The translations under genes were made by a program, and so were the position numbers. Positions 12,901 through 58,300 of a DNA stretch of 64,000 nucleotides are shown piece after piece. Numbering within the stretch: the stretch's first letter is position 1; the number at the start of each line of letters is the position of its first letter. The notes below the pieces were generated by a model. That model worked only from the letters and a program-made list of their open reading frames with translations. It was not told the DNA's origin and did not search any database. Source of the stretch: Ptychodera flava (lineage: Eukaryota > Hemichordata > Enteropneusta > Ptychoderidae); assembly GCF_041260155.1 (NCBI RefSeq), contig NC_091941.1, forward strand, positions 19,477,747 through 19,541,746, given 5' to 3'.

Positions 12901-15489
12901 GATCAAAATTTTTATTTAAACTCTTTGTTAACTGCCTGTATTTAACTGCATTTGTAAAATAGTCCAAACACTCATTCTTTATTTTGTATGTCTGTTTGTA
13001 TTTTTGAATATAAATGCAGATGATTTTTAAGACATACGACAAGGATAATTCCGGATCTTTCAATGCATATGAACTTCGTGAGGCCTTGCGTAGTGTTGGT
13101 AAGTTAATTCGAATCTTGAATTCATTGGTAATAGTTACATCCTCTGGCCTCTGATAGTTCTGCAACATTTTTCATTTATAAAACCATTTTCCCCCCTATA
13201 TCATATTAGCTCCCATATCTTGTATCACTGAGATGCCTATAGAATTACTGTCGATGGTTTAGTTTTAAAATTGTTTATTTGCATTTTAAAATCATAATTT
13301 ATTCAGTGGTCGCTGCACTATGTAAGTATAGAGTGTTTGATAACACAGTACTTTGGCTTTTCTGTGCACTTCTTCAACATGAACAACCTTGGACACTCTC
13401 GCACAGTGGGCAGTAATGACTATGTGACCTCCACTCTTGTAACTTGGATAAGCCTCCATTTTTTTCACTGTCAAACTAAACTAAACTTAACTACGGTAAA
13501 CTACTCTCTCTTAGCAAGAAGTGGGTTATAATAGTTGTCTATTGTCAGATGTAACTCCTCCTCGCCGCTATTTTAATAAGTCGTGCGGTCATAGAGCTTC
13601 TTCGGTATGTGCTCCTTTGCTGTTGAATGCACTGCCCTCAGAAATTCGCTGTCTTTTGTATCTTTTAAACAATTTTGTTCAGCGCACTGATACGTTTGTG
13701 GAGTGCGTTTTTTAACCCTTTCACCACCGTGGTTTGGCCCAGTCCCATTGTAATCAATGGTAGTAGTGGACCTGTTTACAGAGAATTGGGGGTGAACAGG
13801 TTAAGAATTAAAAAATATTATATTATTAGATGATATTTACATGATTTGTCCCAACAAACACCGACCAGTGCATGAGGGCGCCGTTTCAACAGTCTAATCG
13901 GTATAATTGTCATGTGCTTCTTTAAACATCTTCCTTGTAACTCTGCTTCATCAGGTTTCAGACTGAGCTTCAAAGCCATCAGCTCCATGGTGCTGCGCTA
14001 CAGTGAGAAGGACGGTAAAATTGATTTCGATAACTTCATTCACTGTGCCATCAAACTGAAGGGAATGTTCAGTGAGTATGAATTCCCGTTGTTTTTTGCT
14101 TGAATTTTTGTGTTTATCAGTTAAAAAAAAATGAACTGCCACTGTTGTTTTTTCTTTGATGTTAATAATTACTGGCATCATTTGCATTCAGAGTATCCAG
14201 TGTAGAGCAATGTAACAAGCAAAACATATACAAAACAAACCCTGAATGTCTATGACTAGCATCGCCTTGCTTATGGCGTATGGCGGTGTCTTGCATGGAG
14301 TTCTTTACAGGCAGATTTTTCTTCTGTGATAATTTTGTTAACCACCTTCCTAACAGAAACAATCCATGTTTTTTTTAAAGCCACTGACGCTGTTTGATTC
14401 TTTTACACCTTACAGAAGCATTTAATGCGCATGATTCCGGCCGAACTGGTACCACCAAATTTGGGATTGATGACGTAAGTGGACATAGATAATTTGGTGA
14501 TGGCTTCAGAGTAGACTCTCTCACAGTCCCTGTTTCATTACGTGGTTCACAGTCTTTGCTGTATAGAGATATGCCATCGATGGCCTCTTGTAATCACTAA
14601 GCTACGCAGGAGGCAACACATCATGAAATCTTGCTGGCTATGCTAGCTTACCGAGCTTTGCTGCTCTGAGTGTAAATCGTGAAGAGGAGAGAGAGTCATG
14701 TTGAATACCAAACAAAGGGATGTGAAAAGAGGCTAGCCCCAGCCCTATTTGTGGCTAACTATACTTGATATCCATTGCCAGTGTTAAACTACAGGGGGGG
14801 AGCTCTTTGTTCAGTGTATGGCTGCTGTGATGTCATCACTTTATGGCTGTTCCACTTTTTGAGTTTGCCCCTCCATGTAAGTAGGAGTTAGGGAATCAGT
14901 ATCTCATTAAAGAGAGTGGGTTGTCGGAACAGCGCCTATGCGACTTTCTTGATTACAATGTATTTCATGCACGATATCCAGGTGCATCATGTCAACATAG
15001 CTGCAACATTTAAATTTTACGATATTCATCGTTCACAAATATGTTTTAACTTTCATTGATCGCCAACATACCCTATATACAGTGTTTACATTGGTCATAG
15101 GGGTGCCTGGCAACCTTTGAGCAGAGTTTTGACGACATCCTCCCTGTAATTGAAGAATGAAAAGAATTATTGCTGCTAAACGTCATAGGTTGATACTTGC
15201 CGTTTTGCAGTTCCCACAAATAATTTGGTATTGTGACTTTATAACAGTGCAGTTATAGATGATTTTAGAGACGTATGTTGTTTATTTCAAAGTATTAAAA
15301 GCATGCAGCCCAACCAAGAGTACAGCTCTTGATACGCTCAAAAGAGCGCCCTCAGTGTCCTCTAGCATTCATACTGTTCTAAAATGATACGTCAGCATAA
15401 TCAGTACAAGCAAAGGCCTCTTAAGTCTTACTTTGTTTGTTTTTTGTTTGTTTTCCTTCTAGTTCATCCAAACCACCATGTACTCTTAA
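923..15489 (+). CDS. Classical calpain (penta-EF-hand cysteine protease), 3' part only
   Basis: Calcium-dependent cytosolic cysteine protease. The window begins inside the gene, so the catalytic core is missing. Coding exons, all GT/AG and frame-continuous: 923-1134, 1741-1786, 4710-4766, 5004-5087, 7228-7305, 8271-8328, 11342-11400, 12114-12182, 13020-13098, 13955-14071, 14416-14474, 15463-15489 (TAA). Exon 923 encodes the end of the C2-like domain III (RFKLPKGHYVIVPSTFDPGE, DGDFLIRVFS). Exons 1741-5087 encode a low-complexity acidic/Ser linker, and exon 7228 onward the penta-EF-hand domain. Two EF loops are canonical: one spanning the 11400/12114 junction (DDDGSGKLGFDE) and DKDNSGSFNAYE. 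The later two (YSEKDGKIDFDNF, NAHDSGRTGT) are degenerate, as in CAPN2. The C-terminus is FIQTTMYS. The presence of the PEF domain makes it a classical calpain (CAPN1/2/8/9 type); the exact paralogue cannot be told without the core. Confidence 0.96.
8074..8158. mobile_element. TTAA-flanked 85-bp MITE, copy 1 (piggyBac-like)
   Basis: The element lies in a calpain intron. It begins CCCTTTCACCACC and ends GGTGAACAGG (imperfect terminal inverted repeats CCCTTTCACC / CCTGTTCACC) and is bounded on both sides by TTAA (8070-8073, 8159-8162). A TTAA duplication plus CCC-starting ends are features of piggyBac-type elements. It has no coding capacity. Copy 2 at 13716-13800 has exactly the same length and both TTAA boundaries. 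Confidence 0.75.
10870..11021. repeat. Near-perfect palindrome plus direct copy of one arm
   Basis: Positions 10878-10968 form a perfect inverted repeat with 45-bp arms and a single central T. The arms extend outward to 10870 and 10976 with one mismatch. The right arm is then repeated directly at 10976-11021, so three copies of a GC-rich core (GTACGCGGCGGCCGGTACGT, itself partly palindromic) lie within 152 bp. It lies in the calpain intron before exon 11342 and is strikingly GC-rich for this locus. It could be a small foldback element or an assembly artefact. Confidence 0.85.
13716..13800. mobile_element. TTAA-flanked 85-bp MITE, copy 2
   Basis: This is the same family as 8074-8158: it has the same length, starts CCCTTTCACCACC, ends GGTGAACAGG, and is bounded by TTAA at 13712-13715 and 13801-13804. 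It sits in the calpain intron between the exons at 13020 and 13955. Most of the interior is conserved between the copies (for example GGACCTGTTTACAG). Confidence 0.75.
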
Positions 15490-20179: not shown

Positions 20180-22070
20180 ATTTTGCCCCTGTGACAGGCA
20201 TGTACAGACCCTGACACAACCCTGTGGTACAGGTCTGTGTCAGCAAAGACGTCCCATTGCTGTGATCAGGGTTGGTGTACAGGTCTGTGGCCAGTGCTGT
20301 GATGACATGGCTACATACAGTGCTGTAGACACAGTGATGTGACAGGGCCTGAAATTTGTGCCTGTCCCATCTCTGTATTTGCAAGTCTGTACACAGCAAT
20401 GTGAAAACAGACCTGTAACAAGATTGAGTTTTTTTTAATGTACACACAATTATGCCCGTATTCATTTCTGTCATCAAAATTGGCCCATTTTTCTAAAAAT
20501 ATACACCCCTGAAATCTGAAAATTTTCAGGCCCTGTAACAGGCCCCGTAAACTCAACACTGATACACCACTGTTTGTACACCAGTATTTCAGTCATGTGG
20601 TCACAGCACTGGATATACTCAGAAACAAGTCATCGTTGATGACACAGTCCCCACTTGTTAATGGGTATTTTGATTACAGGTCCTCAGAGAGGATAGAGTC
20701 CTCTTCATTAGGTCTGTGATAAAAATACTTTTGAATGAATTCGCTTGATACATGTCTGAGTTATGGTTCAAAATGGCCGCACAGTGGCCATATTGGATTG
20801 CATCACAAAACAAATTGATGTGCATAGCTATGACATAGGTCAATGTCCTTGTACCAACTTTGAATAAAATCGGTTGAGATATGCCTGAGTTATGGCTCTG
20901 TACATGAAAAAATCGTAATAAAATGGCCGCCTGGTGGCCATATTGGGTAGTATCACAAAACAGATTGAAGTGCATATGTATGACATAGGTCAATGTCCTT
21001 GTACCAACTTTGAATAAAATCGGTTGACATATGCCTGAGTTATGGCTCTGTACATGAAAAAATCGTAATAAAATGGCCGAACAGCGGCCATTTTGGATCG
21101 TATCACAAAATAAATTGCCGTGCACAGCTATGACATTTGTCAATAAGCTTGTACCAACTTTGAATAAAATCGGTTGAAACGTGCCTGAGTAATGGCTCTT
21201 TACATGAAAAAATCGTAAATAAAATGGCCGCCTGGCGGCCATATTGGATCGTATCACAAAACAAATTGACATGCATATCTATGACATTGGTCAATGTCCT
21301 TGAACCAACTCTGAATAAAATCGGTCGAAACATGCTTGAGTAATGGCTCTGTACATGAAAAAATCGTAATAAAATGGCCGCCTGGCGGCCATATTGGATC
21401 GTATCACAAAACAAATTGACGTGCATAGCTATGACATTGGTCGATGTCCTTGTACCAACTTAGAATAAAACCGGTTGGAACATGCCTGAGTTATGGCTCT
21501 GTACATGAAAAAATCGTAATAAAATGGCCGCCTGGCGGCCATATTGGATCGTATCACAAAACAAATTGACGTGCATATCTATGACATTGGTCGATGTCCT
21601 TGTATCAACTTTGAATAAAATCGGTTGGAACATGCCTGAGTTATGGCTCTGTACATGAAAAAATCGTAATAAAATGGCCGCCTGGCGGCCATATTGGATC
21701 GTATCACAAAACAAATTGACGTGCATCTGTATGACATATGAAGTAATCCTTGTACCAAGTTTGAATGAAATCACTCCAGGCATCTCAGAGATATCTGCGT
21801 GAACGGACGGACGCACGGACGCACGCACGGACGCACGCACGCACGGACATGACCAAACCTATAAGTCCCCCCGGACGGTGTCCGTGGGGACTAATCACAT
21901 CACTGTATTTACATTCCTGTAATACCAGGCCTGATACACACCTGTCCATACACCCCTGATACCTGACCAATTTTACAAATCCTGCAACAGAGGTTATTTC
22001 TTAGGGACTGTTACAGGTACTGATCAGACCCTGTTTCAGGCATGCACTGAAATCTGCCTGTGGTTTTCTA
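20180..22070. repeat. Irregular CCTGT/ACAGG-word tract interrupted by the 150-bp repeat element
   Basis: Between about 20180 and 20640, and again between 21905 and 22070, words such as ACAGGTCTGT, CCTGTAACAGG, CAGGCCTG and TACACC recur irregularly. The two halves look alike and are separated by the 20646-21892 element, as though that element was inserted into an existing degenerate repeat. Confidence 0.4.
20646..21892. mobile_element. 1.25-kb element of seven 150-bp tandem units with hairpin end
   Basis: Seven units start (ATGGCC) at 20773, 20923, 21073, 21224, 21374, 21524 and 21674, a regular 150-bp period. Each contains a short palindrome (GGCCGCCTGGCGGCC in the consensus). The array is followed by a GGACG/CGCAC-rich tract and a terminal hairpin (21864-21892: AGTCCCC...GGACG-GT-GTCC...GGGGACT). 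AGTCCCCAC at 20646-20654 is the inverse of the last nine bases, so these may be short terminal inverted repeats; no target duplication is evident. The same end terminates two other elements at 28-29.5 kb. I infer a non-autonomous transposon, either short-TIR or Helitron-related (hairpin plus CTAA end). Confidence 0.65.
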
Positions 22071-22941: not shown

Positions 22942-39939
<16,998 letters not shown>

Positions 39940-40658: not shown

Positions 40659-43600
40659 ATGGGGGACGAACCAAGCCCTCCGTGGACTGCAGAGCAACTT
40701 GCATCCGAAGAGGTGTCCAAGAAAGATATTGTTCAGTTCTTACAAGAAAATGCGAGCCATGTGGTAGGTTGCTGGGTTTCAAATGTATAGGACATTCTCT
40801 CCCGAGCGCTAGCGCTGCGCGCTGGCTGAAAGTGGAACCCACACATACACATGATGTGGCGGCCCGGCGGGCCACAGGGTGTTGTCTAAATGTCCGTCCC
40901 CAGGGATGGGTAGGTGTTTCGTTGTATTGCTAATAAAGATATTCTACCAACCTTTGGTGTTTTGGTCTTAAACTTAGCACTGCCCTTGACAATCTTGCGT
41001 TAACGTTTTATCAACATGCTGTATCTATTATCTGATGAGTTTGAGTGCCTAATTGGCCAAAGCATGGAGGTAGTAGCCAAAGCAAGCAAGGGTAAATTAC
41101 TAAGCTGTGGACGCTGTCACCAGATTATCACCGGATTAAATTTGACAAAGTCAACAACGAACGCGCCAGTAAGGTATAACAGTTATACCTTACTGGCGCG
41201 TTCGTTGTTGACTTTGTCAAATTTAATCCGGTGATAATCTGGTGACAGCGTCCACAGCTTAGTAATTTACCCTTGCTTACTTTGGCCAATTAGGCACTCA
41301 AACTCATCAGATAATAGATACAGCATGTTGATAAAACGTTAACGCAAGATTGTCAAGGGCAGTGCTAAGTTTAAGACCAAAGCACCAAAGGTTGGTAGAA
41401 TATCTTTATTAGCAATACAACGAAACACCTACCCACCCCTGGGACGGACATTTAGACAACACCCTGTGGGCGGGCGCACAGAGGATGCCATTCCCCCAGT
41501 TATTCATGCAGGAGGAACGGCGCGTACTTGAAAATTGATGAGTAGTTTTTGTGCTTTGATTAACTTGTTGTAAATGTATGTTGCCCTTCTCGTCAGCAAA
41601 ACACCTGGTTAGTGCAAATCGGAAACATTGACTCGTTTTCTATTTACCGTGGCGTCAATTACCCCAAAAGTAGGTCATAATGTCGTGCATAGTTGAACAC
41701 GTCTGCTGTAGGTTTTGCAAGGGTAACGATATCAAAGCCTTGTCACGATATGAAGTCTGCATGAAAATTTCTTCAAATAATAAAATACGCAACTGTTTCG
41801 TAGCGATCGTGACAGATTTCACTGCTCCAAAAAATCACCTAGTTATAGGTAACACTCTTTGATTTCCCATATTTTTATAGATAAATCATTAAAGGCATTT
41901 ACTGCGGTTCCGCAGCCCTGCCACTCCCTGGCTGGTTGTGTGCACTCCCCCACACAACCAGCCAGGGAGTGGCAGGGCTACGGAACCGCAGCAATAAAGG
42001 CCTGTGTTGGCACCAGATTGTCTCATCAGAAAATTTTCCCGCAAGATTACAATTTCAATAGAAAGCTAAGAGCTATCACACCTCCGTAATCCTCTTACAG
42101 ACTAGAACAAAAGCGATCCCAGGGATCGTGAACAGTAACTTTAAGGTGGCATTCTAAAGGTGGTGTACATTTATAGACGGTAGAGAAACTGTCTATGGTA
42201 TATTCAGAGACCCGTGGAAGTGAATTATCAAAAGCCAACTGGCTAAAACATTGCTATCTTATTGAACTCTTGAAAAAGTAACTTCAAGCTTACTGATTGC
42301 ATGTCGTCAAACAAATTATGAAAGTTTTATTATGTTTCTAAACATCATTTCAGGTTTATATATTGACATAGCATTTGGGAAATCCATCAGACCAAGGTTC
42401 TTGTCAAAGATATACTGTCAGGGAGCGATAAAAAGAGCTAGTATTGCAAACTTTGAAATTGCTGTTGGCCAATAGCTGTGGTGTGTTCAAACGGGATTCC
42501 TGCCTTTTACGGACCAATTTTGACTTTTACGACTTTTACGCCTCCACCAAAGCTAATAGGAACTTCCATAAACAAATGTCTAAATCTGCCTATAAGCACC
42601 CTGTGCGCAAGCTTGATGATATTTCGAAAAGTTTACATCCAAATTACAAATTGCCTACACTCATCAACAGCTTTGTTATTAGGGACTATCACAACCAGAA
42701 ATCTGTAACAAAATTCACCAAAATATCAACTTTTTTCTAGCTGTACCCGATATGACTACCCGGAGACCACCATTTTTCACGCGTAAAATGTGACTGTAGT
42801 GACATGCTTTATTTTTCTAGTGTAAAATGTGACTGTAGTGGCATGCTCTGGGTAGTCATGTCGGGTAAAGCCGGAAAAAGGTGATATTTTGGTGAATTTT
42901 TAGTGGATTCCTGGTTAGGGTGAGTCCCTAATAAACAAGCTGTCGATGAGTGTTTGCAATTTGTCATTTGGATGTAAACTTTTTAGAAATATTGTCGAAC
43001 AAACTTGTGCACAGGGTGCTTGCGGGTGGATTGGGACGTTTGTCTATGGAAGTTCCCATAGCTGTGGTGGAGGGTAATAGTTGTAAAACACCACAGCTAT
43101 GAACCCACAGCTAACTTTAAAAGTGTCTTAAGTCAAGTCAATGTTCAAAATAGATATACTGACCATCATTTGATATTTTTTTAGCTCCATATTGAGAGAG
43201 ACTGCTCATTTTTTTCAGTGTTGATCACCTTATGAAAATTATTCTCGCTTTGAAAATGCCATACTGTCTTTTGCAAGTGAGAAATACAATGACATAGATC
43301 AGTGTTCAATGCATGCATATTTTTCACTAAAATTTATCTGAAAATTTGTCACTGGACAACAGGAAGTGTCCTAAATCTGGCTCAAAATGTTCAATATTCA
43401 CAGTTTCTCCAAGAGAACAAGATGAAAGGCCAGTTGAAGAATGTCGTCAAGACTTCCAAGAAGGATCAACTTATTGTCGTCTACAATAAACTGTTTGAAA
43501 GCAAGGCCTTCAAAGGCAGTGCTGAGGAGGAAGCAGCTGCAGTGGCTGAATCAGAGCTTGCCAAGGTGACAGAGAAAACGGAAAAATTGACTGTGGATGA

Positions 43601-46600
43601 GGGCGCCAAGGGGGATGAAGTAAGGAAATTTTTCTGCTGATGTGCAGTATGCTCTTAAGGTTATATCTGATTGGTCAAGTGCCACTTTTCTCAGCAACTT
43701 AGGCAGTCTAATTTTGTCATTTAATTATAACGGTAAGATTCAGCCATCCAATAGGATAACAGCTTCCGAGAGGCTGCACATTAGCCCAAATTTTTTTCGC
43801 ACACATTTTTGCAATCTTGAAATACACTCCTATGCATGTAGACAAGTGGTTCAAGTCGGTGAATTTTTCAGAAATAAAATCATTTGCAACAGTTTTTCTC
43901 ATCTCATCTTTTTCATACAAACCTATTTGCAATTTGGCAGCCCATGTCAGGTTTACCTAGCAATCGAACGTGTTAACTTTGAGTCTGTGCAGTAGTGAAA
44001 ACAAAACACAAATCACCATGTTCACCCAACTCACACGTTCACGAATCACAGACTTGAACCATGACTACTACACATTCAACGAAAGTCAGCGGTACACTAG
44101 CACTGATCGCAAATGACATCATTTATTTCCTCCTTAATATGCATAAATCTATATATTTGTCTGCATTTTCCGCATAAACGACGAAAATAATACCTGCTAC
44201 TGTTACAATGGCTACTAAAAGTCACACTAATTCGTATGATTTTATGGCTCAGACTACAAGTTACACAACAGCTGCACATGCAATAAAAAAATTCTTCCGA
44301 ATTTTAGGCTGCGTTGTCAGAATGAAGTTGTGCGCGTGCAGCTATATTTAGTAACAAACCTGAAATAGCGATCAACGCTATTTGGTTGAACAGAACATTT
44401 GAATGTGCTCTCATGGCATTTTATGTGAGATATTTAGCAAGGAAATTGAGATGAATAGATACACATAAACAAATTCAATGGTTTTCTTTAAGTTGTGTAG
44501 ATTGTATATGTGAAACATACGTATTTAGTCTAACCTGTCAGATATACCTGTAGAACTTCAATCGTTACCTGGGAAATGGAGCCATAAGCAGCTCACTAGA
44601 CTTACAGCTGTAAATAGGATTTCCTGTTCAGACGCCATTCAGGCATGAATAACTCTTGCAAGTGCCATAACAGCAGTGTCTTGTGGCTAACTTACTTGCC
44701 AATGGCGACCAGTTACAGAGTGGTGTATGCTTGGTGGCGAAATGAAATGACCAGACTACCATAAAACCCTGTTGCTCACTTGAACTTTTTTCTGCATTTC
44801 ATGCTGCTGTGATGCATGCGCACAAAAAAATTCAGTCCACCTTTTAGATTGTGTGCAAAACCCAGATCAATGCTGTTGAAACACATAACAAAAATAGTGT
44901 AAAAATCATCATAAGTTAACAGGTTCCAACATAAAATCTAAACGCTCCACCTTTCAATTCATCAGGTGAAAGAGAAACCTAGATACATGAAGAGAATCAT
45001 GAAGAAAGGAGACAAAATCAACATACCGCAGAAAGGAGACAATGTCAAAGTCTGGTATGTGGGCAAGCTGCAAGATGGCACTGTCTTTGACACCAACATC
45101 CTCACAGGTATCTTGTCATCTTGGTATTAAAGAGAAGTATTTTGTGCATTTGCAAACATTATCTACCCGGGAAACTTGTTAATATGTAAACATTTCTGAG
45201 TGTGAAAAACCTGTTTGAAACCATCACATCTGTGCTGTCACACAGTTCAGGGAGTGTAATTTCCATTATACAAACAGTATGTAGCATAACTCATCATGAT
45301 AAGGTTCAAAATGGTATCGTAGGGTCACACTGTAACTTATCTGTTTATTGCATACGTCTGCTCAAAGTCCTACAGTTATCAAAAAAATACCCAATAATTT
45401 TAGTATTTTCATTATTTTTGTTCAAAAATGTTCTTCTCTCTACCAAAAAATTGTGTGCACATTATGCACTGATATTGCGGACAAATGAATTCTTGTCTGG
45501 ACTAAAATTCAGATGTCAACAACAACTTTGGACTTAATCCTCATACTGGCTATATTCACCAGATGAGCACTAGGTATTTCACAGTGATTTCGGGAGTATT
45601 TCACACAAAGAGCACATCCAAGTCATGTTTCAGCAGAATTCCTAGGGAGTAAGTAGTCCTCAGGTGTCCATTAGTCTGCCCAGTAAAACTTTTCAAATCA
45701 AGGTGTAACTAATATTACTGCTACAATCAATCTCACTGCTGTAAACCCATAAATTAGTTTCCATCATCAGTTGACCTGAACGACACTCAAAACAAACCTT
45801 CCCCTTTGATACAAATAGTCCAGTACAGTCCCCCCCCCTCCCCCCACCTTGTCATCTCCAGTAAATTACGAAGTTGGATCTATAGATTTGGAACAGGGTG
45901 AAAGAATTGATGTGGCAAGCCATAATACGGTAAATGGCAGTTAACTCAACAATGACATGAAACCGCACATGCCTTATCAAAGTTGACAAATGTATTGTAA
46001 CCGTAGCTCACCACTACAGAAAACCTGCATAAATCCCAAGTAGTTGGTCTATAGTCAAACAACATTTGTATTCATGATGAGGTATTCAGTACTGATGCAA
46101 TTGCCACAGAGTACCTTTTATTGGTCTCAAGTAACAATGTATGTATGCCACCTTCATGAAAGTATGTGTTCTTGAATTTTGACTAGTTCATTTATCTATG
46201 AATTCAACCCAACCATTGGCAAGTCTATTTGATTACCTGTATATACTTGTTGAAATTGGCTGGAGTCCTGGCTGTGAGTGCAGATCATGCTGTGCCTCTT
46301 TGATCATTACCAAGTCTTTTGCCAGTGTGTCCCTTTATCTCTCAACTTGACCATGATCATGGTAGACAAAAAGTTATCGCTGACTGCCAAAAATCAAAAT
46401 CCAACTGTGAATATTGTTTCTTTTGTAAAAGTTTCTCATCCACTGTGCCTGAAACACATCAGACTGCATGTACATCGGTTGAAAATCTCAGTTTCAAAGC
46501 AAAAGTTTTTTTCCCAAATGTCCTATCTCAAGGTGTTAGTTATATCTTTTTGAATAAATTTTTGATTTATTCAAGGAAAAAAGAAAAAGTCGGCTCAACC

Positions 46601-52337: not shown

Positions 52338-55300
52338 ATGGCCAAGGATAAGGGCCCTCTGCATACTGCTCAAAGAGAAGGAGACGCACTAAAGAAAGAG
52401 GTAAAATCGCTAAACTATGCAGCTGCTTTTGACAGCGGAGCGAGGAGGCTGACACTGACCTCCTCTGCTCTGGCAACTATTCAGCGTTCATAACAACCAA
52501 GATGGACGACAAGATTTGTATCCAGCCTCCGGTTCCCAGACACTTCGCACCAAAACCACTTCGCACCATACCATCTCGTCCCATACCATTTCGCACCAAA
52601 ACCACTTCGCACCAAAACAACCTCGTACCAAAACCACTTCGCCCCAAAAGTAATGTCCCCCAAACCACTTTGCCCGAAACTTATCGCTAACTGGCAGAGC
52701 TGAAAATAACCACCTTCCTGTCATCCTGGGACTGAAATCTTGAAAGTGTACGCATTTCGCGAAATTGACATCGTGCAATTCCGTGCACGGCACCTGAGTT
52801 GTAGCATTTACGTGTTTCTTTTTTCTTATTCTATCGTTTATGGTTTCATGCAACAATAAATGGTTCGTGGTAGCCAAAATGTCCTATACATTAAGGCCGT
52901 GGCTATTGACAGGCGCCTGTCAATAGACAGAATCCGGCTATTGACAGGCGCCTGTCAATAGACAAAAAATGGCTATTGACACGCGGGACGTTTTTCGCCA
53001 AAATTCACCACATTTTAACGAAAGAAACTGCCCCATGCTTGTTGGAATGCTTTGCAAAGCCTTTTTTCACTGAAATATTGACAAAGTCGCCGCATTTTTG
53101 CGTATTGCACAAGTTAACCTTGCACGATGTTGCCTTAACACCGCGCCTGTCAATAGTCAAAATCTGGCTATTGACACGCGGAACTCGTTCGTCAATTTTT
53201 AATGGTTTTTAAAGTAATAAACTGGACCATGCTTCTCAGAATGTTTTACTTAGCCTTCTTTATGCATGAAATTATGGAAAAGGCGCCGTAGACTTCAACT
53301 TTAGGCCGCAATTTAACGTACACACGTAAACCCGGCATGTCCGATGTTACCACACCACACGTGCACCGCGCCTGTCAATAGTCAAAATCTGGCTATTGAC
53401 ACGCGGGACTCATTCGTCAATTTTTACCGGTTTTTAGCGAAACTAAGTGCCCAATGCTTCTCAAAATGTTTCATATAACCTTCTTATGAATGAAATTATG
53501 GACAAGGCACCATACACTTTACCGTATACGATGTTTCATCACCGCCTGTCAGTAGACAGAATCCGGCTATTGACAGGCGCCTGTCAATAGACAAAAATTG
53601 GCTATTGACACGCGGGACTGTTTTCGCCAAAATTCAACTCACTTTAACGAAAGAAACTGCCCCATGCTTGTTGGAATGCTTTGCAAAGCCTTTTTTCACT
53701 GAAATATGGACCAAGTCGCCGCATTTTTGCGTATTGCACAAGTTAATCTTTCACGATGTTGCCTTACAATGCGCCTGTCAATAGTCAAAATCTGGCTATT
53801 GACACGCGGGACCCGTTCGTCAATTTTTAATGGTTTTTAAAGTAATAAACTGGACCATGCTTCTCAGAATGTTTTACTTAGCCTTCTTTATGCATGAAAT
53901 TATGGAAAAGGCGCAGCAGACTTTACCGTATACGATGTTTCATCACCGCCTGTCAGTAGACAGAATCCGGCTATTGACAGGCGCCTGTCAATAGACAAAA
54001 AATGGCTATTGACACGCGGGACGTTTTTCGCCAAAATTCACCACATTTTATCGAAAGAAACTGCCCCATGCTTGTTGCAATGCTTTACAAAGCCTTTTTT
54101 ACTGAAATATGGACAAAGTCGCCGCATTTTTGCGTATTGTACAACACGCGGCACTCGTTCGTCTATTTTTACAGAATTTTAGCGAAACTATAGGCTAATG
54201 GCTATTGACAGGTGCCTGTCAATAGACAGCCGGCGATGTTGATCGGCCCTACTGACAAACATAATTTTCGCTCTCGATTGCGGTTGACAACATTTTGATC
54301 TTTCTTTTTGTAATTCGCCGACCTAGCTGCTCAATAACACATCGGCGTGTGACAGTACAAAGGCAGCTTTACACTGTGATTAGAACACAAATTTTCATAA
54401 ACATGAGTCGCTGCGCTGCGGTATAGGAATTTTCATCAGTGCTATGTTTATGGTTTTCGGTAAAAGTTGCAAGGCACACTGTGGAAAGGCATTCACATGT
54501 GTCAGTTCAGTCACCTGCTCGAAACTTTCAACCCCGGATACCCTTACGGGCCGCAGTCTTGAACTAGGGCTTCCCGACTATAACGGCCTCGTTATAACGA
54601 AATGACCTTTGACCGCATGTGGTTGTTACAAAGGCGAAGATCTGGAGGCAAAACGATGTCGTCGATGTCAGTGCTGAGGTAGGTTTATTAGTTATTTCCT
54701 GGCAAAAGTAAATTATAATTTAAAGTTCAGCCATCAACTTTCGTTACTTTGTTTTAGTTGTACAATTGGGAGGCCTGCGATGTAGGGGGGACTTAGAGAG
54801 TGAAATGACACAAAGGCTACCGAACTGTCAAACGTGTCAAACGTACAGCAAGTAATACTTTGAAGTTGACCGGTAGCGGCAAGTGTTTGTAGGAGTGGGA
54901 GGTATGATAGGATGTTGACAGTTTAAAAGTGTATGAATAACCGCGGCCTGTTTATATATTGTTCAAGTTTGGATGGAATGAGCTATTTGAGAAACTTGTC
55001 ATGGACATGAAGGTACATAAATGTTTCTAAGAATTATCCATCTCCATAATTAGCAGTGTATAATTAAGTATGCATATTAGCTGGAAAGTGTATATAAGGA
55101 GATGCATCAGAGCATTCTTTCCCTCTCTGCTGCAGATTCGACTGAGTATCATACTGGTCATCTCTAGCCGTGATAATTCCAACTGCTTGCTGTGATCCCG
55201 CTTGACAGACCGAGAATACCAACAAGTATATTTGCAATTTGTGAATATTTTCATTCTTCAATAATGGCTACCTTTTCCTGTCTTATTGTAGGTGATTCCA

Positions 55301-58300
55301 TGGTCAAGTATCTGCAAGACAATGTTTATCCTGTTGCAGGTATCACACCTGTTGTTCTTTCCTTCCCAGGAAAACGTGTTGAGCAGATTTTTGAAGAGAT
55401 AAGCGACATTGTTCATCAATTTGATGTTTTGATTTTTCATGCAGGTATCAATAACTTTGGTGAGAGCCCTGTTGCAGTAGCTTCCAAAGTGAAGATGTTT
55501 TACCAACAGGTGAAGGCAGTGTCCCCAAGTACTTACATTCTCCTTTCTTCTCTCTTGTTCAGGTGTTGCAGTGCATACACCAATCTTCGGCTGGATTTCA
55601 TTCAGAGTGTTAATTATGAGTTTGTCATACCTCTTAACCGACTCTTGCGAGATTTGGGAAAGAAGGTTACAGACCTAGGCTTTATTGATTCACTTTATTA
55701 TTTCTCTAGGGAATCTGTGGAGATGAAGAAACTGTTGGCAAGGGATGGTCTTCATCTAAACCGACGTGGTGCAGCTTTGTTGGCCTCTGTCTTTTGCAGC
55801 GAATTGTCAACAGTGAAAAGAAAGGTGTTAGCTGACAAAATAATGTCAAACTTTGATTCTGTTTGCAGATCAGATGGTAGCAGTGTCTCCAGGCCTAAGT
55901 CTAAGAAGTCAGAGGTGAAAGTGGCTTTGCCTGAGAAAACTAACCATGATTTGTTTACTTGCAGGGAACCTGAGAGCAGTGTCTCCAGGCCTAAGTCTAA
56001 GAAGTCAGAAGTGTTAACTTTGCCTGAGAAAACTAACCATGATTTGTTTACTTGCAGGGAACCTAAGAGCAGTGTCTCCAGGCCTAAGTCTAAGAAGTCA
56101 GAAGTGAAAGTGGCTTTGCCTGAGAAAACTAACCATGATTTGTTTACTTGCAGGGAACCTAAGAGCAGTGTCTCCAGGAATAAGTCTAAGAAGTCAGAAG
56201 TGAAAGTGGCTTTGCCTGAGAAAACTAACCATGATTTGTTTACTTGCAGAGAACCTAAGAGCAGTGTCTCCAGGCCTAAGTCTAAGAAGTCAGAAGTGAA
56301 AGTGGCTTTGCCTGAGAAAACTAACCATGATTTGTTTACTTGCAGGGAACCTAAGAGCAGTGTCTCCAGGCCTAAGTCTAAGAAGTCAGAAGTGAAAGTG
56401 GCTTTGCCTGAGAAAACTAACCATGATTTGTTTACTTGCAGGGAACCTAAGAGCAGTGTCTCCAGGCCTAAGTCTAAGAAGTCAGAAGTGAAAGTGGCTT
56501 TGCCTGAGAAAACTAACCATGATTTGTTTACTTGCAGGGAACCTAAGAGCAGTGTCTCCACACAAGTGGATAGCAAAGTACCTAGCCACGTACAAGTGGG
56601 CGGAGGAAATGCAATCGCTGTAGGCTCAACATTTTCCACTTATTCAGACTTTGAGGTTTCTTACAGGCAGTGGTGTCAGGATAATTGCCATCCAATGAAA
56701 GTGTCGACGAGTCACAGAAATAAAGGCGCCTTGGATCCCAAAAACTTTCTGATTCTGCTGGCTGACCCTAAATAAATGAATGTTCCTTTTAATTGCAAAG
56801 GAAAAGATGATGAGAGGTAATGCTATTGCAATTGGCGAATCAGGAATTTCTCCTGAATGGTATCATCTTTTAAGAATAGTTCTGAGAATAATGTTACAAA
56901 GTAAACAAAACATTTATTAGGTAAAGACATCAACTTTGTTGGGGCAAGGCGACTAATTGCTTCCCTAGCAAACTTGTTTTCCAAGTATTGATCCATATTG
57001 AAGAACTTTTTTGCACATTGAGAAGAAAAGGCATGATGTTAAAAGTGATAGCAATATTTACTACGATGTTCGAAACGAGAAAAAATTGTGACCAAAATGT
57101 TTTAATTTCCGGGTACAGTTTTGTCGTACCCAAGGCCATTAGCTTTGCTATGCCACAGAGGCAGCACAGCAGTGCTGACCCGAACTGGGGGGTCAAAGGT
57201 TACAATGTCGGCTCCCCCGTACATTGAGACTCCTTGTATCTTTCTCTCTGGGTCTTGCTTCGCGCCGTTCTAGGTCGTGAAGTTACGCTTCGGGTATGTT
57301 TTGCTTGCTATTTTGGATTATGTGACGACGATATAGAATGTTGTCACCATCGTAATAGTCGTTTCTCAATGCAGGCATGGCATGCGGAGCTATGTTGAAA
57401 GCGATCAAGCTGTCAATGTCGCGGCCATCGGAAATCGCGATGTCTGTCATGACAGTTTTCTGACGTGAACTACTCAGATTTTCCGACTTTTACACTGCAA
57501 AAACGGACTTCATCATCACTAAAGAGTGCCATTGTACACAATAAGTATCACCAATCGGCAAAAATACGCGTATGCAGGGCCGTTGTTTTGCTAGAGTGAC
57601 ACGGTGAACGCGTACGCCGAACGCGTGCGACGTACCGTGCGTGACGGCTTTCGCTAGCATTGCAAAATGCTGATTTTCCGACGTATTAGAACTTATTTTG
57701 TAATTACTACATGGCAGAACAATGTCTTCTTCATTTACATGGAAGAAGAACAGTTTATTTCGCTAAAATTTGGTGAAATATGGCAAAAAAAGTCCCGCGT
57801 GTCAATAGCCAACTTTTGTCTATTGACAGGCGCCTGTCAATAGCCTGATTCTGTCTATTGACAGGCGCCTGTCAATAGACACTCCGATACAATTAATGCT
57901 TCCAAGTTGTAGGTAAAAACAACCTTATGATACGTCGTAACATCGTTGTTTCGGACGAGTTGACGGTACTGCACTTTGGGCGAAGTGGTTTTAGTACGAT
58001 GTGGTACTTGGGGCGAAGTGGGGTTGGGCGAAGTAGTACTTGGGAAGAGGTGGTTTTGGTACGAAATGGTTTTGGGACGAAGTTGTGTGGGGCGAACTGG
58101 TTTTGGTGCGAAGTGTCTGGACCCCCAGCCTCCTATGGGTAGACTTGCTGCGAATCCGTAGCCTCTGCCACTCGGGTAGGTTGGTCATTGGAGTGCACTC
58201 CCAGCAGAACACGTCAAGGAGTGGCAGGGCTCGTTTTCGCAGCAATGGGTAGACATACTCAGAGAAACTTCATATTTCAATCATCCTAATGCTTTCTTAT

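Follow-up and report, generated by a model that had tools for sequence, protein, structure and literature searches.

We analysed a stretch of 64,000 nucleotides from the hemichordate Ptychodera flava (assembly GCF_041260155.1, contig NC_091941.1, positions 19,477,747 to 19,541,746; in the following called the window), which revealed a foldback-type element of repeat-built arms around a single intact open frame (55264-56775, plus strand, 503 codons, P0001). The first part of this frame encodes a predicted SGNH hydrolase. All features of the element are summarized in Table 1.

Element boundaries

A 9-bp direct duplication, CCAGCCTCC, lies at 52522-52530 and again at 58125-58133, so that its copies abut positions 52531 and 58124. 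Since the adjoining bases disagree at either side, the duplication is of exactly 9 bp. A 9-bp match located 0-6 bases from both positions occurred in 728 of 2,000,000 random window pairs (c. 4 in 10,000). Inside the duplication, the motif CCAGACACTTCGCACC was found without mismatch at 52536-52551 (plus strand) and 58105-58120 (minus strand). Both the duplication and the inverted ends described in the initial annotation are confirmed. No third copy of CCAGACACTTCGCACC was detected in the 64 kb with up to three mismatches, and 2 of 100 shuffled sequences likewise gave two matches. The outermost ends differ from each other: reading inward, CCAGACAC follows GGTTC at the left end but GGGT at the right end. 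The element thus displayed long, length-variable inverted ends made of short tandem repeats with a target-site duplication directly outside them, the features of the foldback type, which is a structural class and not a clade. A chance or artefactual origin was ruled out by the exact duplication edging exact mirrored ends, together with the palindromes described below.

Table 1. Features of the foldback-type element and its edges (positions in the window)
Feature	Position	Strand	Basis or remark
Target-site duplication, left copy, CCAGCCTCC	52522..52530	.	sequence
Foldback-type element, entire	52531..58124	.	duplication and mirrored ends
Left outer module, end GGTTC + CCAGACACTTCGCACC, then units of c. 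16 bp, CACTTCGCACCAAAAC	52531..52660	+	
Left spacer, no kinship to right spacer	52661..52898	.	local score against shuffles
Left inner module, two 24-nt palindromes	52899..53030	+	comparison with right inner module
Left arm, inner part, tandemly duplicated	52914..54229	+	palindromes at 52903, 52938, 53567, 53971, 54202 (the last with 1 mismatch)
TATA-like promoter site, TATATAAGG	55091..55099	+	sequence; consensus from general knowledge
Predicted SGNH hydrolase domain, residues 1-196	55264..55851	+	profile, catalytic residues, fold
Tandem array, 7.1 units of 96 bp (one unit 93 bp)	55879..56560	+	basic 32-residue repeat if translated
C-terminal part, c. 70 residues, without recognised relative	56560..56775	+	Pfam and protein search
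AATAAA, poly(A)-like signal, overlapping the stop codon	56771..56776	+	sequence; consensus from general knowledge
Right inner module, palindromes at 57820 and 57855	57751..57882	-	
Right spacer	57883..57969	.	
Right outer module and end, inward GGGT + CCAGACACTTCGCACC	57970..58124	-	alignment to left outer module
Target-site duplication, right copy	58125..58133	.	sequence

Modular architecture of the arms

Both arms are mirrored and modular, each consisting of an outer array of repeats of about 16 bp, a spacer, and an inner module built of palindromes. The units of the outer arrays are related to CACTTCGCACCAAAAC, and the mirrored short-repeat arrays, which had already been noticed initially, extend over 52541-52649 on the left and 57976-58106 on the right (two overlapping rows). 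Comparison of the two arms revealed that the inner modules are identical at 121 of 132 positions (92%), the outer ones in 106 of 164 gapped columns, with pieces detected by BLAST being 80-84% identical. The spacers of 238 and 87 bases, in contrast, have no detectable likeness: their local score was 14, whereas 200 shuffles averaged 15.2 and reached up to 24. Mirrored inner and outer modules separated by unrelated spacers are expected if the modules were retained for their function. Furthermore, this is the pattern that repeated protein-binding sites would leave, a role that we infer for this element by analogy. For Galileo, the long ends were demonstrated to contain several transposase binding sites (PMC3688188).

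The perfect 24-nt palindrome CTATTGACAGGCGCCTGTCAATAG is present in six exact copies and one further copy with one mismatch, distributed over both arms as previously noted and confined to the element, with an expectation of 0 (100 shuffles). Similarly, all 13 plus-strand occurrences of CTATTGACA in the window and all 11 of TGTCAATAG lie inside the element. Folded as single-stranded DNA, a pair of the palindromes reached -32 kcal/mol compared to -6.7 (standard deviation 1.9) for shuffled sequences, none of 200 being as good. In the left arm, the stretch 52914-53505 is repeated from 53543, and its start occurs once more from 53947. Such an arm, expanded by tandem duplication, matches foldback elements. 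Altogether, the repeat-built mirrored arms support well the Foldback-like anatomy proposed beforehand.

The predicted SGNH hydrolase

Profile PF13472 matched the N-terminal domain alone with an E value of 2.3e-8 (35.2 bits, cut-off 32.9), compared to 31.9 bits for the full protein; NCBIfam gave nothing for the SGNH domain. Alignment to the solved structure 4c1b and to P0002, a coiled-coil-plus-SGNH protein with 31% identity to the domain, placed the catalytic residues S12, G36, N63, D161, and H164 in their blocks. Block III, usually of the form GxND, reads GINN here. The SGNH fold was supported by structure comparison of the domain model (pLDDT 64), whereas a full-length model, with a pLDDT of 41, was set aside. 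In a comparison with viral structures, the matches listed were to SGNH proteins in general and in many cases to proteins of phages. By profile, catalytic residues, and modelled fold, the domain is an SGNH hydrolase domain.

A search of the isolated domain against solved structures gave 4c1b, the esterase of the long interspersed nuclear element (LINE) ZfL2-1, as top match (E 8.2e-5; better single stretch with an i-Evalue of 0.011), which dropped to third place (1.6e-3) with the full protein as query. As 4c1b was absent among the 50 matches listed for either structure comparison, closeness to the ZfL2-1 esterase rests on sequence and is weak per stretch. Only one of 1164 candidates from a protein search for relatives matched, namely P0002. 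Later searches yielded 0 of 129 (E up to 0.1) and 0 of 189 (E up to 0.01), and a texim sequence was never among the results. Scans of viral contigs and prokaryote genomes revealed no relative either, which tells little, since an element from an animal is hardly to be expected there.

Repeat array and transcription signals

Downstream of the SGNH domain, the frame runs through the 96-bp array, which would encode a strongly basic region (isoelectric point 9.9, charge +25) if translated. The initial annotation had described one intact gene for an SGNH hydrolase fused to a repeat domain. While the open frame and the order of SGNH domain and repeat region stand, the 32-residue repeats and the C-terminus may not be translated as drawn. 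An open frame across the repeats is weak coding evidence, because one antisense frame is open over the same array. In simulation, one repeat unit was open by chance in 2087 of 20,000 cases and the C-terminus in 663 of 20,000. Moreover, six array units contain CTAAC...TTGTTTACTTGCAGG (CTAAC...TTGCAGG), and AGGTGAAAGT occurs in the first unit at 55913; these we take to resemble the two ends of an intron, judged by eye on the array units and not with a splice predictor. Splicing from the AGGTGAAAGT donor to any acceptor of the array would lead to a stop two codons on and leave essentially the SGNH domain. Thus, the array could be a multiplied intron and not a coding repeat. A match to AMPK_alpha_AID within the repeats of the full protein (4.3e-4) was below the cut-off. 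The C-terminus was suspected by eye to be a piece of a transposase DNA-binding domain, which was rejected as both Pfam and the protein search were empty.

Apart from the TATA-like site listed in Table 1, another match is located at 54953. The AATAAA at 56771 is a weak signal, since four others occur within the element. Together, the TATA-like site and AATAAA suggest a compact transcription unit, and the gene is apparently intronless.

Search for a transposase

A hidden transposase was sought with Pfam in frames of at least 35 codons, leaving out 57755-57871 (minus strand) and frames wholly in 52531-53897 or 57800-58124. Of the 38 interior frames other than the SGNH frame, 37 were scanned, together with the antisense frame over the array, and none gave a transposase family. 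Matches below the cut-off were DEAD_2 (0.087), PRTase_2 (0.099), and DUF3880 (0.085) in interior frames and five in the antisense array frame, including ORF158L-like (4.3e-4) and T_hemolysin (0.0031). Likewise, neither a reverse transcriptase nor another retroelement domain was present among the scanned frames, which ruled out a CR1/L2 LINE as the identity of the element, and Rfam gave no match anywhere in the window.

With regard to the superfamily, the duplication of 9 bp falls within the 8-11 bp of Mutator (MULE) elements (PMC6446971), to which the element had been assigned. The duplication and the repeat-built ends agree with that assignment, but a MULE DDE transposase was not recognised in the 37 of 38 frames, and Galileo provides a P-type alternative. 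As a non-autonomous member would likewise be without a transposase, we leave membership open. Most foldback elements are thought to be Mutator-type, Galileo being one of the exceptions (PMC4079207, PMC3169594), and a Mutator affinity is therefore likely, though not shown.

Flanks and rest of the window

The right flank (58145-58246) is 71% similar to 41899-41995 in both orientations, so that the element adjoins another dispersed, palindromic repeat. The stretch 40899-41443 forms a near-perfect inverted repeat, the arms of which measure 164 nt and 105 nt and are 99% complementary. It sits between a frame at 40659, which by eye resembles exon 1 of an FKBP3-type gene, and its exon at 43293-43637 with a BTHB domain (E 1.2e-16). 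Further exon matches were detected at 710-1135, 13876-14100, and 24090-24341, namely to calpain domain III (E 2.3e-19), weakly to an EF-hand (E 0.02), and, on the minus strand, to AIDA C2 (1.6e-6). The matches to calpain domain III, AIDA C2, and BTHB point to an animal source. In addition, the window harbors two tandem arrays, one at 20770-21772 with 6.7 copies of a 150-bp unit and one at 28137-28991 with 3.8 copies of a 225-bp unit, as well as a stretch of about 134 AT dinucleotides at 36026-36292.

Comparison with known mobile elements

The TU elements of sea urchins are foldback elements with modular, repeat-built arms. The same anatomy is found in Tetris of Drosophila virilis, with duplications of 8-10 bp, the complete copies of which, unlike our element, are without conserved open reading frames (PMC4079207). 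Tm1, a Mutator/foldback element of root-knot nematodes, resembles the element in its inverted ends of tandem repeats (units of 13-15 bp), in asymmetric short motifs outside the inverted repeat, and in having non-autonomous copies; of 53 complete elements, 45 showed duplications of 8-10 bp, 9 bp being the commonest (PMC3169594). The four outermost bases of our element recur in the outer motifs of Tm1, GGTT in CGGTTAA and ACCC in CCTACCC, which we regard as a lead only (PMC3169594). In contrast, a palindromic inner module is not reported in the consulted text on Tm1, which has a copy with a MULE transposase and no SGNH gene (PMC3169594). Galileo shares long, internally repetitive ends, but has a P-superfamily transposase with a THAP domain (PMC3688188).

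With respect to the gene, Ssk-FB4 of Drosophila also carries a protein-coding gene between long inverted foldback ends, with duplications of 9-10 bp and an unknown transposase (PMC8277862). Its cargo is the known host gene Ssk with introns, whereas the frame found here encodes a putative SGNH hydrolase and is apparently without introns (PMC8277862). Mobilization of an SGNH hydrolase gene by a DNA transposon is known from texim in fish Helitrons; texim-like genes also occur in amphioxus and sea urchin and are patchily spread among animals (PMC4021074). There, however, the vehicle is a rolling-circle element and not a foldback one, and texim genes have several introns (PMC4021074). An SGNH esterase within a mobile element is moreover encoded in ORF1 of CR1/L2-type LINEs such as ZfL2-1 (4c1b), though these possess a reverse transcriptase and an RNA intermediate, none of which was seen in the scanned frames (PMC3905857).

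The combination of foldback ends and an SGNH gene had been called undescribed. No foldback/Mutator element with an SGNH gene was found in the open-access literature, among the matches listed and judged by titles and the starts of abstracts, Repbase and subscription papers lying outside this search; the word "hydrolase" occurs 0 times in a MULE survey (PMC6446971). To this extent the claim holds, but its two halves are in print, gene-carrying foldback elements with Ssk-FB4 and transposon-borne SGNH genes with texim; it is their joint occurrence that was not found there.

Interpretation

The segment 52531-58124 combines a target-site duplication and mirrored ends with modular arms and an SGNH domain that is intact and retains its catalytic residues, while a transposase could not be recognised in this copy. 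On this basis, we consider it probable (about 70%) that the segment represents a non-autonomous DNA transposon of the foldback type, which was moved in trans, most likely by a Mutator-type transposase, and which carries the SGNH gene as cargo. A cut-and-paste insertion would have left the 9-bp duplication, and the transposase, most likely a Mutator (MULE) enzyme, would have come from another copy. By binding the repeated motifs in the outer and inner modules of the two arms, this enzyme would bring the ends together and mobilize the element. The SGNH gene, possibly expressed from its own promoter-like and poly(A)-like signals, may derive from an SGNH gene of the host or of a retroelement that was captured and then spread along with the element. 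It is most simply seen as cargo, by analogy with Ssk in Ssk-FB4 and texim in fish Helitrons, though one copy cannot separate cargo from an accessory role.

Several observations weigh against this interpretation. No further copies were found within the 64-kb window, and the arms are of unequal length, the repeats of the left one reaching 54229 and those of the right one only back to 57751. Because of these unequal arms and outer modules of 65% identity in gapped columns, the copy may be old or immobile. Furthermore, the superfamily is not shown, as this copy has no recognised transposase, the source gene of the SGNH cargo is not known, and the promoter and poly(A) motifs are short, each recurring elsewhere in the element.

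Of the alternatives, the one that survives best, though we deem it unlikely, is that the SGNH protein is an accessory of the element family, i.e., a basic-tailed esterase that would aid transposition or counter silencing. In one variant, the protein possibly acts on the element's own repeats, like vanC for VANDAL elements. SGNH/GDSL esterases are recurrent in LINE, long terminal repeat (LTR), and Penelope-like elements, texim has been suggested as a Helitron helper (PMC4021074), and extra open reading frames are known in MULEs, including the anti-silencing vanC. The strongly basic repeat region and the LINE esterase as best solved-structure match by sequence in one of two queries would agree with such a role. 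However, gene and ends kept together were seen in no second copy, the repeat region may not be translated, binding by the protein is itself presumed, and most Helitrons are without texim, as stated by the texim authors (PMC4021074). An equally unlikely extension would be a foldback/Mutator-type animal family with the SGNH esterase as a standing accessory gene, whose basic repeat tail would act on the element's own palindromes.

Somewhat less probably, the same cargo would sit in a foldback element that belongs to another superfamily, either P/Galileo-like or Merlin-like. Merlin elements leave duplications of 8-9 bp and P elements of 8 bp, lengths that speak for this possibility. Foldback-like ends have moreover evolved in more than one superfamily, as the P-type transposase of Galileo illustrates. 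Nevertheless, a 9-bp duplication next to ends of short tandem repeats is the pattern of Tm1, which has a MULE transposase (PMC3169594), and foldback elements are mostly thought to be of the Mutator type (PMC4079207). Finally, we give little credence to the SGNH gene being a separate nested insertion, e.g., a retrocopy or a fragment of a retroelement, that entered a foldback element already in place and thus lies outside the mobile family: although the gene is apparently intronless and its SGNH domain came nearest to retroelement-type esterases in one query, with 31% identity to P0002, direct repeats of 13 bases are missing from the region 54230-57750 except in the 96-bp array, and the region holds one trivial palindrome only, hence no trace of the ends of a nested element, nor did the scanned frames reveal a reverse transcriptase or retroelement domain.

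SGNH esterases occur in unrelated mobile elements; for the LINE esterase, a lipid or membrane role has been proposed (PMC3905857). If a cut-and-paste foldback element carries an SGNH gene, the range of vehicles grows by one, and it includes a test case in which no reverse transcription takes place, so that assembly of an RNA into particles or at membranes should not matter. Its arms, in turn, offer a testable case of repeated binding sites within long inverted ends. Should the gene be cargo and nothing more, as we favor, the element would represent one more gene capture by foldback elements. If, on the other hand, the esterase belongs to the family as an accessory, one enzyme class would have been recruited by LINEs, LTR elements, Penelope-like elements, Helitrons, and cut-and-paste elements, which would point to a common benefit of esterase activity to mobile DNA that is independent of reverse transcription.

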